NCBI GenBank assembly: GCA_016839635.1
Contig: JAEOTV010000009.1
Span: 1-8,568, forward strand
Direction of reading: 5' to 3'
Origin: Promethearchaeota archaeon
Lineage (GTDB): Archaea; Asgardarchaeota; Lokiarchaeia; Sigynarchaeales; SOKP01
Length of the DNA stretch: 8,568 nucleotides
Below are positions 4,249-8,498 of this stretch, piece after piece. Below the pieces are notes generated by a model. It did not search any database and was not told the DNA's origin. It was given only the letters and a program-made list of their open reading frames with translations. How positions within the stretch are numbered: position 1 is the first letter of the stretch; each line of letters starts with the position of its first letter. The translations under genes were made by a program, and so were the position numbers.

Positions 4249-4353
4249 CTTTTAAATTTTTACTATTTTCATAATTTATTTACCTCTCTTACATTTTTAA
4301 AGAGAATTGTGTTTTTAATTGTTTATGCTTTAAATTTAAGATTGTTTATAACA

Positions 4354-4357
4354 GGAG
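4354..4357 (+). promoter_or_regulatory. Shine-Dalgarno that fixes the start of the longin-like gene
   Basis: GGAG lies eight bases before the ATG at 4366. The frame is open further upstream to a GTG at 4309, but that start has no ribosome site and would add a hydrophobic stretch unlike the rest of the protein. TATA-like candidates are TTTTTAAA at 4294-4301, which leaves this site in the leader, and TTTAAATT at 4329-4336, which would start transcription at or just past it. Confidence 0.5.
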
Positions 4358-4365
4358 TCTCTCGA

Positions 4366-5148
4366 ATGGAAACTAGTCCAAATGGTTTTTATCCAAGAAG
4401 TGATGAAAAAAAAGGGAATGTAAAAAGAAATGTAGATAAAATTTTGACTAATAATGCATATACATCATGTAATTTTAATAAGATTCCTCCTATAATTGGT
4501 GTTCAAATTGGAGATCAATATGGAAATACATTGATGGTAATTGAGTATGATTCAAATGAAAAAACCAACTTTAAACCAATAAAATCTTATTTATCTGAAA
4601 ATGAAAAGAATCTTTTAGAAATGGACTTAATTTCAATGTATTTTAGCTCATTAAGGACATTTGCAGGACAAACGAATATTCAGAATTTATCGAATTTGGA
4701 GATCCATGGTTCTAATATAAAGGTCCAAATCTTCTTTCTTTTTGACAAATACATGATTATACTCTTTTTAAATTCTAAAACTGATTTGAATCTAAAAGAG
4801 AAAAAACTAATTGTTAAGTATTTTGAAGAAAAATTAAATAAATATGAATTTGAATTTGAGCATTTTAATGCAGCAAAATCTAGAAAAATTATCAGATTGT
4901 TAGAAACTAAAGGGAAAGTGTGGCTTAAACAATTGAATATTAACCATTTACAAAGTTTCGAAAATACTTACTTAAAAAAACATGAAATCATTGATGAATT
5001 AACAAGTGAAATTGAACCTGTAATTAAAAAAGTGCTTTTAGAATATCTAAAATACATTCCAGAAGAGATTCTTCAGAATATATCTAAAGAGATTAACACT
5101 AAAATTCAAGATTCATTATTTGGATTTGATTCTAATTTTAATTGCTAA
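4366..5148 (+). CDS. Longin/roadblock-like domain protein with helical C-terminus
   Basis: This is a predicted cytoplasmic protein of 260 residues. After a polar, Lys/Asn-rich N-terminus, residues about 41-163 have the strand-helix pattern of the longin/roadblock fold. A first hairpin reads IIGVQIGDQYGNTLMVIEYD. A helix follows, LLEMDLISMYFSSLRTFAGQ, then strands around IHGSNIKVQIFFLFDK and MIILFLNSKTDLN. A final helix runs to about residue 165 (KKLIVKYFEEKLNKYEFEFE). Such domains bind or regulate small GTPases in eukaryotes and are expanded in Asgard archaea next to GTPases. The rest, about 165-260, is charged and helical (coiled-coil-like) with no family I recognise. The fold is assigned from pattern and memory of Asgard proteins, so the exact subfamily is uncertain. 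It is divergent from the EamA gene and ends 7 bases from the convergent NTF2-fold gene. Confidence 0.65.
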   Translation: METSPNGFYPRSDEKKGNVKRNVDKILTNNAYTSCNFNKIPPIIGVQIGDQYGNTLMVIEYDSNEKTNFKPIKSYLSENEKNLLEMDLISMYFSSLRTFAGQTNIQNLSNLEIHGSNIKVQIFFLFDKYMIILFLNSKTDLNLKEKKLIVKYFEEKLNKYEFEFEHFNAAKSRKIIRLLETKGKVWLKQLNINHLQSFENTYLKKHEIIDELTSEIEPVIKKVLLEYLKYIPEEILQNISKEINTKIQDSLFGFDSNFNC

Positions 5149-5642: not shown

Positions 5643-8498
5643 TTAGTATAAATAATATTGGATCTTCTTATGTTGCCAGGCCCTAAGCAGAAAGAATAAT
5701 AAAATTAAAACACTAGTTAATATCAACGAAACAAAATCGTTCCAATAAGATACAATCCATATTATAACAATACTACCTAGTATTAACAAAATGTAATAAT
5801 AGAAGTACTTTTTTTTCATTTTATTAATCTCCCAAATAAAGATAGATGATCCTATAATAACTCCAAAATTATAACCAAGATCTAGGAATGGTTCCAGATT
5901 ACTATAATTCATAATTGCGAGAGATAGGGCTCCAAATAAACCCAGAAGTAGAAATAACCATAAATTTTTATTTGATTTTTCATCAAATATGGTTTTTCTT
6001 ATATGACCAAAACCATTTCGATATAATGCCCAGAAAACGAGAGCGATACTAAATATTTTTAAATAGAAATGTCCAAAAAAGAGGTCTGTGTTTTCTAAGA
6101 AAGTTAAACTTTGGTTATAACCTAGATTAACTAGAAAATTTACCATCCATTGTGGAACAGAGACTTCAAATAGAAAATTAACTGATGGAATTATCTCGAT
6201 TGATGAAACTGATTTTATTAAAGCACGAATTGCCCAAATAAAATAAAATACAACAAATACATCAAAAATTTTTATAATTTTTTGAGTGAATACTATTGAA
6301 GAAACTTTGATATAACTTGATATACTGGCAATAATGCAAGTCCCTATCAACGTATTTATAAAAAATGCTAAAGCAAAAAGTGACCATATTGTAATATCAA
6401 GTGCCTGAGAATTGATTTGGAAGGAAAAAAAAGTTAGTAATCCTAGAAATGCCACAATACTAGCATAAATTAGGGATTTTAAGACATTTCCTATTTTTCT
6501 TTTACTTTTTATATTTTTTTGATCTTCTTCTTCTTGTTTACAAATTTCAGAGAGTTGTATCAGTCTCTTATATTTTACACCTTTAGATTTTAGCGCCAGT
6601 GCTTTAAATTTTTCTGAAGCCTTTTTTCGTAGTGGATTATTGGATATATGTAGTTGTTTCAAATTTAAAAGGTCTCCAATTGAATCTGGGAGGAATTTTA
6701 ACATGTTATCATTTAAATTTAAAATTTCTAACATCTTTAAGTTTCCAAATGTTTCTGGGAGGGAAACTATATTATTATCATAAAGATCTAATATCTTAAG
6801 TGCTTTAAGATTCCCAAATGATTCGGGGAGATACTCTAATTCGCATGAACTTAAATCTAATATCTCAAGAAATACAAGATTTCCAATAGAATATGGTAAT
6901 TCTTTTAAAGCACCCTTATAAAAATAGGATGGTGCTTCCAAATATAATTTCTTTAGAGTGTGCATATAACCTAGCTCATCTGGAAGAAATTTAACAGGAT
7001 TGTTTTCTAAATGTAATTCTTCTAGAACTGTAAGGTTTGCAATCGATCTTGGTAAAGTAATTAGAGAATTATTTTCAAGAAATAAAAATTGTAAATTTGT
7101 GAGATTTCCAACAGATTCCGAAAGAGATTTTAAATCAGTTAAAGCAAGATCTAGCCATTCAAGTGTTTCTATACTCATAATGATCTCCGGTAGTACAGTT
7201 AGTTGGTTACAACGCAAATTTAATTTTTTAAGATAAATAAAAGAGAAAAAAGAATCAGGAAGTATCGTTAAATAACAATTGAATAATCCTATTCCCACAA
7301 CATGACCCTCTTCAATTTTAATTCCAAAAGATAAGTGATCAATTTCATAGGCTAAAGGAATTCCACTTTCCTCAACTTCTTCTGCTAATCTTTTCATGGG
7401 GCCTCCTTGAATATTTAAACCTTCAATTAATAGTTTTTCTAAGTCTTTTAATGCAGTAATCTCTTCTAGAGTTAAATAATAACCCTTGTATTTTTCAGTT
7501 TCTTCAATTACTCCATATTGATTTTTTTCTGTTTTTAAGCTGATGCTTTTGTAAATTAATTCAAAAAATATTTCATCTACTCCCTCTCTACTTTTTGCTG
7601 AAACTAAGAAGTACTCAATTCCATAACTTATTAGGGATTTTTCAATTTCATCCAAATCAATATTATTATCTCCACTACCTAGATCATTTTTTGTTATGGC
7701 TACAACTATTGGTATTTCTTGATTTAAACAGCTTCTAATTTCACTAATCCATTTTTTTATACTTTTTAAAATATTTTGATGTGTTTTATCAACAACAACA
7801 ATTACAGCGTCAGCAAAATTAAAAATCTTTTCTTTTGTTGGAGAAATTTGACTGGAAAATCCCCCTGTATCCCATATTGCTAAATTCATAATAACTTTAT
7901 CATCAATATTTAAAATCTTCTTATATACATTAAATCCAACTGTAGAATTTAAATTAGCTTTAAATTCTTTATCCGTGAATGCATTTATTAGTGTCGTTTT
8001 TCCCACTCGATAATCTCCAACAATTACAATTTTAATAGATAAGTTATTTGCAGAAATTTTAGCATTTTTAACCTTTGAAAACATTCTTATTATCCCTGGA
8101 ACCTTAAACTTTAGACCTTCTAAAGTCTTTTCCTCTTCAAGTCGTTCTAATTCATTCGCAATGTGAGTAGAATATATTTTTAATTCAATATCCGAAGTTT
8201 CATTTGATGCAATGGTTATTAGAATGTAATTAATTCCCAAAGAACAGGAAACCACTTTCTTTCCAGATTGTTCTTTAATTATTAGGAAATCTTTATCTAA
8301 TCCATATTCAAGAATGAGATTATTAATTAAATCACCAATAAAACTATAATTTGCATAAATTTGAGGTTCCTCAATATCAGGATTTATAATCTCTTCAACT
8401 AAAGATGATTCTCTTCTTTTATATACTAGAATAGCTAAGATACCTTTTACGTTTTCCCCATATTGAGATAATAGGTATCTTATATGAGAATTTTTCAT
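5643..8498 (-). CDS. Membrane-bound roadblock-GTPase-LRR fusion protein (Roco-like)
   Basis: This is a 951-residue multidomain protein. Residues 1-125 have the roadblock/LC7 pattern (VKGILAILVY; helix FIGDLINNLILEYGL; strands KDFLIIKEQ, KKVVSCSLG, YILITIAS; helix IYSTHIANELERLEE). Residues 154-320 are a Ras/Roc-type GTPase. Its motifs are P-loop GDYRVGKTT (161-169), switch I STVGF (185-189), WDTGG (209-213), TKND (269-272) and SAK (300-302). The Gln-61 position is Phe214. Residues 321-398 are a linker. Residues 399-634 hold ten LRRs of 23 residues (LxxLxLxxNxLxxLPxxIGNL), the sixth with a six-residue insert. A Lys/Glu-rich stretch (635-669) precedes about eight membrane helices (670-940). No COR or kinase domain is seen. 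Roadblock proteins regulate GTPases (MglB acts on MglA), so self-regulation at a membrane is inferred. The start is ATG with no Shine-Dalgarno. The domain calls are strong except the roadblock, which rests on pattern. Confidence 0.9.
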   Translation of the reverse strand: MKNSHIRYLLSQYGENVKGILAILVYKRRESSLVEEIINPDIEEPQIYANYSFIGDLINNLILEYGLDKDFLIIKEQSGKKVVSCSLGINYILITIASNETSDIELKIYSTHIANELERLEEEKTLEGLKFKVPGIIRMFSKVKNAKISANNLSIKIVIVGDYRVGKTTLINAFTDKEFKANLNSTVGFNVYKKILNIDDKVIMNLAIWDTGGFSSQISPTKEKIFNFADAVIVVVDKTHQNILKSIKKWISEIRSCLNQEIPIVVAITKNDLGSGDNNIDLDEIEKSLISYGIEYFLVSAKSREGVDEIFFELIYKSISLKTEKNQYGVIEETEKYKGYYLTLEEITALKDLEKLLIEGLNIQGGPMKRLAEEVEESGIPLAYEIDHLSFGIKIEEGHVVGIGLFNCYLTILPDSFFSFIYLKKLNLRCNQLTVLPEIIMSIETLEWLDLALTDLKSLSESVGNLTNLQFLFLENNSLITLPRSIANLTVLEELHLENNPVKFLPDELGYMHTLKKLYLEAPSYFYKGALKELPYSIGNLVFLEILDLSSCELEYLPESFGNLKALKILDLYDNNIVSLPETFGNLKMLEILNLNDNMLKFLPDSIGDLLNLKQLHISNNPLRKKASEKFKALALKSKGVKYKRLIQLSEICKQEEEDQKNIKSKRKIGNVLKSLIYASIVAFLGLLTFFSFQINSQALDITIWSLFALAFFINTLIGTCIIASISSYIKVSSIVFTQKIIKIFDVFVVFYFIWAIRALIKSVSSIEIIPSVNFLFEVSVPQWMVNFLVNLGYNQSLTFLENTDLFFGHFYLKIFSIALVFWALYRNGFGHIRKTIFDEKSNKNLWLFLLLGLFGALSLAIMNYSNLEPFLDLGYNFGVIIGSSIFIWEINKMKKKYFYYYILLILGSIVIIWIVSYWNDFVSLILTSVLILLFFLLRAWQHKKIQYYLY

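Follow-up and report, generated by a model that had tools for sequence, protein, structure and literature searches.

The locus described here raises the question of what a single archaeal polypeptide might do when it carries, one after another, the parts of a small-GTPase system and those of a polytopic membrane protein, and whether such a chain is real. The window, that is, the whole 8,568-nucleotide stretch of Promethearchaeota archaeon contig JAEOTV010000009.1 (assembly GCA_016839635.1), encodes a protein for which a sequence-only reading had proposed the order roadblock, GTPase, LRRs and membrane domain in one chain; frame, coordinates and strand were all correct (Table 1). All four parts are complete in 15 homologues besides the window protein, so the joining of residues 640-951 to the remainder is not a local assembly error. 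Pfam analysis of the 951-residue protein identified Ras at residues 156-316 (E 5.1e-29) and LRR families with their best stretches between residues 531 and 637; COR and roadblock models are absent among the 19 Pfam families with E up to 1. An AlphaFold2 model of the whole chain, based on 28 sequences, has a mean pLDDT of 73.9 and a pTM of 0.44, which is low, and the packing of the domains is therefore not readable from it.

Table 1 Features of the family gene in the window.
Feature	Positions	Strand	Remarks
Whole gene	5643..8498	minus	single ORF, ATG start, 951 aa, stop codon included
Roadblock domain, residues 1-122	8133..8498	minus	assigned by transitive homology and predicted secondary structure, without a direct Pfam match
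Ras-type GTPase domain, residues 153-320	7539..8042	minus	motifs GDYRVGKT, TVGF, WDTGG, TKND, VSA
Phe214, at the Ras Gln61 position	7857..7859	minus	Phe/Leu in 25/25 members
GTPase-LRR linker, residues 321-385	7344..7538	minus	COR domain not found
LRR domain, residues 386-637	6588..7343	minus	ten units, one enlarged (about 519-546)
Helical connector, residues 638-672	6483..6587	minus	basic near its end
Eight-helix membrane domain, residues 673-951	5646..6482	minus	predicted N-in, C-in
TM3-loop-TM4 core, residues 741-828	6015..6278	minus	highest conservation among the ten blocks compared

A search with residues 640-951 gathered 27 proteins, the window's own counted, and a search with residues 1-150 added P0028. 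The nearest relatives of the window protein include P0003, which is the protein of locus L001 (Lokiarchaeia MAG ABR05), and P0028, named Hermodarchaeota; the closest relatives are Asgard metagenome proteins, in agreement with an Asgard origin. The N-terminal domain is present in 18 of the 28 aligned members, P0006 being cut inside this domain and P0028 ending before the membrane domain. Seven of the 28 (P0015-P0019, P0021 and P0025) begin directly at the GTPase, without a roadblock, and three (P0020, P0026 and P0027) comprise LRRs and membrane domain without a GTPase. Each of the 27 aligned members that extend as far as the membrane domain also has LRRs, with the GTPase optional. Thus, the roadblock is not required for the core function. 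The seven roadblock-less members nest among roadblock-bearing ones in the tree, at weak support values (81-93 / 33-81), which suggests that they lost the roadblock secondarily. Six named family loci were found in GTDB contigs, with one long frame apiece. The membrane-domain profile matches 6 of the 227 genomes of the phylum, in single copy each, among the up to 18 candidates scored per genome; up to 19 candidates were scored for the N-domain profile and up to 10 for the GTPase-linker-LRR profile, and a missing match is no proof of absence. The family thus exists, but its distribution is narrow. The wide spread in Asgard archaea that had been entertained is not what the candidates scored reveal, and so restricted an occurrence speaks against a direct part in the ancestry of eukaryotes.

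The identification of the N-terminal domain required indirect routes. No direct Pfam match to Robl_LC7 (PF03259) was obtained for any of 13 family N-domains, and the N-domain profile has no significant PDB sequence match, the best being a dynein roadblock chain (E 0.15). The same profile matches roadblock-GTPase relatives with E values down to 4.6e-33. It matches 81 of the 227 genomes at E up to 0.01, many strong matches lying in frames of ~320-370 aa; the 81 include the six family genomes and weak matches (E up to 0.01), some of them in frames about as long as a roadblock alone, and the strong matches that were fetched are roadblock-GTPase proteins. Five of these relatives were scanned with Robl_LC7, of which two pass the 23-bit cut-off (L084 with 29.0 and L087 with 27.1 bits) and three fall below it (L083 with 20.6, L088 with 15.7 and L074 with 13.2), the place of L083 having scored 23.2 in the genome search. 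Profile-profile comparison connects the family N-domains with those of the relatives (3.5e-35), and the latter with standalone Asgard roadblocks (E 4.2e-10, probability 96.7). The direct comparison of family N-domains with the standalone set yields E 6.5e-5 (probability 64); that set comprised 25 candidates and includes L039 and L041, which resemble wrong-frame ORFs. The AlphaFold2 model of residues 1-122 contains helix 2-16, strands 20-27 and 32-38, helix 51-65, strands 71-77, 80-86 and 91-98, and helix 103-122. The sections of PMC10933270 on roadblock structures describe the same order of helix, two strands, helix, three strands and helix, and report that two Asgard roadblock proteins form homodimers in crystals. 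Transitive homology and predicted secondary structure thus agree on a roadblock fold for the first 122 residues, as the sequence-only reading had it, where Pfam is blind directly.

Among the roadblock-GTPase relatives, proteins of ~600-670 aa (L074:3-2012, L075:3613-5547, L076:3116-5116, L077:11999-13951 and L073:10041-11831) have an N-terminal P-loop domain followed by a roadblock and a Ras-type GTPase, apparently two GTPases flanking one roadblock; the P-loop domain of L074, the one of the five that was scanned, is Arf-like by Pfam. Adjoining pairs of genes for 525-547-aa roadblock-GTPases occur in L088 (3799-5382 and 5504-7078) and L079 (4526-6166 and 6399-8033). These pairs carry an extra C-terminal stretch and are reminiscent of paired Rag-like genes.

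The five nucleotide-binding motifs (G1-G5) noted in the window protein are confirmed in 25 of 25 GTPase-bearing family members. The P-loop, the switch I threonine, WDTGG, [NTS]KxD and SA are kept throughout, with L004 showing WDIGG. G3 of the window protein reads WDTGGF, and the glutamine expected there is absent, which had gone unnoticed in the first reading. At the position of Ras Gln61, directly after the second glycine of G3, each of the 25 members has Phe or Leu, and the 42 roadblock-GTPase rows from outside the family all keep the glutamine; these 42 derive from the fetched loci alone, with only identical copies removed. Both counts exclude L007-L012, cut family loci marked '?' because the motif search gave no result there, and L043-L047, whose 'other' F/L rows are cut copies of family members. 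Eight non-family rows without a roadblock have Glu (4), Asp (1) or Gln (1) at this position or are unread (2). The contrast therefore holds within the roadblock-GTPase group, glutamine not being universal in Asgard GTPases. Three residues further on (+3) a Gln occurs in 22 of the 25 family members and in 21 of the 42 roadblock-GTPase rows.

In a GTPase tree of 75 rows the family forms one clade (100/100) among the roadblock-GTPases. The tree was midpoint-rooted, and the placement among roadblock-GTPases assumes that the root falls by the single-domain Ras rows; a 208-aa frame labelled RAS (L095) groups with the roadblock-GTPases. Locus rows repeating family proteins already present were dropped, three being restored, as were domains shorter than 140 residues, and a long-branch warning applies to P0025, L019 and L025. 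Among the matches listed, a profile of the GTPase, linker and first LRRs is covered in full by the six family loci alone; the next best of these matches are mostly roadblock-GTPases, matched in the GTPase part. Since the family is one clade and full-span matches among those listed are confined to its loci, a single joining of a roadblock-GTPase to an LRR-membrane protein is the most likely origin of the chain. In L006 a row of four single-domain Ras-like GTPase genes (L006:9474-12051, minus strand) lies a short way downstream of the family gene.

The fused roadblock invites comparison with MglB and MglA, and a self-contained switch of that kind had been suggested, with the roadblock as GAP or GEF on the neighbouring GTPase in cis. 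The roadblock directly precedes the GTPase in 18 of the 28 aligned members and in the roadblock-GTPase relatives, and the Gln at +3 could in principle substitute for the missing one. However, according to PMC4316618, MglB works by positioning two residues of MglA itself, a glutamine and an arginine. With that glutamine replaced in 25 of 25 members, an MglB-type GAP acting in cis is unlikely. Moreover, the roadblock is among the least conserved parts of the chain, and it is absent from seven members that retain the same kind of GTPase. Regulation of the GTPase by its own roadblock, whether as GAP or as GEF, is on balance an improbable account of the fusion.

Replacement of Gln61 in Ras leads to slow hydrolysis, and a comparably slow hydrolysis may apply to the family because the change is the same. 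The loss argues for a long-lived GTP state. On the other side, loss of the residue need not mean slow hydrolysis, since some Asgard GTPases outside the family also do without it, and the Gln at +3 might help catalysis. The missing glutamine could also belong to a GTPase that does not cycle, with the nucleotide as a structural cofactor and partners organised at the membrane through the LRR and roadblock domains. Such a scaffold would accommodate the loss of Gln61 in 25 of 25 members and the absence of the roadblock or of the entire GTPase from some; all 25, however, retain the switch I threonine together with intact G4 and G5, which is more than a mere scaffold would need and leaves it with little probability.

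About 65 residues separate the GTPase from the LRR domain, in which the window protein has seven strict pattern matches. To reach the ten LRRs counted previously, one has to include the first unit, with its strand at about residue 400, and two units of irregular form whose strands lie at 517 and 615. Matches to solved structures start at about residue 410, Leptospira LRR proteins and SHOC2 being the closest. Like Roco proteins (LRR-Roc-COR), the family combines LRRs and a Ras-like GTPase in one chain. It is nevertheless not Roco, as had been argued, because COR has no match, the LRRs lie on the opposite side of the GTPase, following it, and eight membrane helices are predicted. The likeness to SHOC2 is a property of the LRR class and no proof of Ras binding. 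SHOC2 is reported to bind MRAS, so that docking of the cis GTPase on the LRRs is a fair guess, no more. The family shares with SHOC2-MRAS an LRR domain of the same class alongside a Ras protein, and differs in that the two are in cis and membrane-bound, the binding being putative. The sensor role originally proposed for the LRR domain is putative.

The polytopic nature of the C-terminal part was borne out. Eight strong hydrophobic segments extend from residue 675 to 940 of the window protein; the hydrophobicity scan also flags residues 400-418 inside the LRR domain, a false positive. Twelve members were scanned, of which seven have eight segments, two have seven (P0021 and P0025) and three have nine (P0023, P0026 and P0027), the extra segment lying between TM3 and TM4. 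The mean number of Lys and Arg residues, each from 34-39 of 39 rows, is 5.7 before TM1, 0.7, 3.1, 1.4, 5.4, 0.5, 3.0 and 0.0 in the successive loops, and 2.5 in the tail. The positive charges alternate in the pattern expected of eight helices with both termini inside, and a topology of eight helices with both ends cytosolic is predicted. P0026 (Promethearchaeota, partial) and P0027 (Helarchaeota) lack the GTPase and carry LRRs both before and after the membrane domain. These flanking LRRs would fit an even number of helices if both were cytosolic, yet both proteins are nine-segment cases.

Mean pairwise identity among the 16 full-length members, calculated for ten author-chosen blocks, is 73% for TM3-loop-TM4, 72% for TM5-6, 63% for the LRRs, 62% for TM1-2, 54% for the GTPase, 50% for TM7-8 with the tail, 42% for the roadblock and 36% for the linker after the roadblock. 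Eleven residues do not vary across the 27 members that can be compared: N715, K731, D746, R758, E768, N803, D805, H810, K814, N828 and R939. All are charged or amide residues in or beside helices, and the TM3-loop-TM4 core holds eight of them (D746, R758, E768, N803, D805, H810, K814 and N828). As TM3-TM6 is the best conserved part of the chain, the membrane domain is probably functional, its conservation exceeding what a mere anchor would show.

FeoB carries a GTPase before a polytopic domain and LRRC8 has an LRR domain on a channel; the family combines domains likewise. The main rival to a membrane-wired switch is therefore a GTP-gated transporter or channel, in which the eight-helix domain would move a solute and the cytosolic GTPase-LRR part would gate it. 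That TM3-TM6 rather than the GTPase is best conserved agrees with this reading, as do the invariant charged and amide residues and the constant pairing of LRRs with the membrane domain where the GTPase is optional. However, no sequence relation to the membrane domains of these proteins was found: the FeoB membrane-domain model of Pfam has no match, and FeoB_N remains below its cut-off. Neither Pfam nor PDB sequences provided a relative outside the family, and the model of the domain (pLDDT 67, pTM 0.61) has no confident PDB fold match. Moreover, a comparison of the ORFs by eye reveals no transporter gene shared by the window and all six loci; the window and L003 have an EamA-type gene, and L004 and L005 have ABC-type ATPases. 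We consider a gated transporter rather unlikely.

The reading that we favour, tentatively, is a membrane-wired, hydrolysis-impaired Ras-type switch. It starts from the observed domain content, the single origin from roadblock-GTPases, the loss of the glutamine and the conservation of the membrane core. In this proposal the LRR, GTPase and roadblock domains would lie in the cytosol, tethered to the membrane by the eight-helix domain. The GTPase would bind GTP and, with its catalytic glutamine gone, hydrolyse it slowly and rest in the GTP-bound form. Its state would then change through nucleotide exchange or with the help of a partner supplying a catalytic residue of its own. The roadblock might serve in pairing or recruitment and not as an MglB-type GAP, and the SHOC2-class LRRs might offer a GTP-dependent docking site to the switch or to a partner, passing the state to the membrane core or reading it from there. 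A nine-segment count would place the C-terminal LRRs of P0026 and P0027 outside, which counts against this switch, as does the lack of the roadblock in seven members and of the GTPase in three. Possible too, though doubtful, is an Asgard-specific membrane receptor or transporter with a GTP-tilted Ras switch in the chain, a SHOC2-like LRR domain and eight helices of a new fold, dispensing with lipid anchor, GAP and separate effector. If that were true, Ras signalling would be fixed at the membrane without any of these three.

In eukaryotes, lipid anchors or Ragulator-type roadblock scaffolds bring Ras, Rab and Rag to membranes. The family represents another route in archaeal relatives of eukaryotes, a switch that forms one chain with a polytopic membrane domain, the fusion being accompanied by loss of the catalytic glutamine. 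It shares with MglA-MglB the pairing of a roadblock with a small GTPase and differs in being one chain with the glutamine used by MglB replaced. It offers a testable example of how a roadblock may act on a GTPase where the usual MglB mechanism is unavailable. The presence of regulator and GTPase in cis, which had been set against the separate proteins of bacteria and eukaryotes, is not new, because Asgard fusions are in print: the relevant sections of PMC10933270 mention the RB-GTPase order for Asgard archaea and give 26 of 74 MK-D1 GTPase sequences as combined with roadblock or longin domains. The family likewise has a roadblock and then a small GTPase, and its GTPase groups with these proteins in the tree. 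In contrast to the family, the Asgard roadblock-GTPases that were fetched keep the glutamine (42/42) and have neither LRRs nor membrane domain, many being about 320-330 aa long. No report of an LRR-membrane fusion was found among the listed papers of the open-licence literature. The new part is the fusion of a roadblock-GTPase to LRRs and an orphan eight-helix domain.

The genes after the family gene on the same side are alike in the window, L001 and L003, as judged by eye: a lumazine-binding-like protein, a protein of 260-280 aa, a SnoaL-like protein and a 125-aa membrane protein, with two further genes interposed in L003. The other four loci have different neighbours, so there is no fixed partner. 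Family scans covered the window proteins and the 260-280-aa ones. The latter (window 4309-5148, plus strand; L001:9128-9910; L003:7565-8404) are conserved in the three loci; they have no significant Pfam match, the window copy has none in NCBIfam, and profile comparison indicates that they are not roadblocks. Elsewhere in the window, positions 1392-2050 span about 650 bases with no ORF of 80 aa and no Rfam match, and contain a 19-nt AT-rich inverted repeat at 1927-1972.
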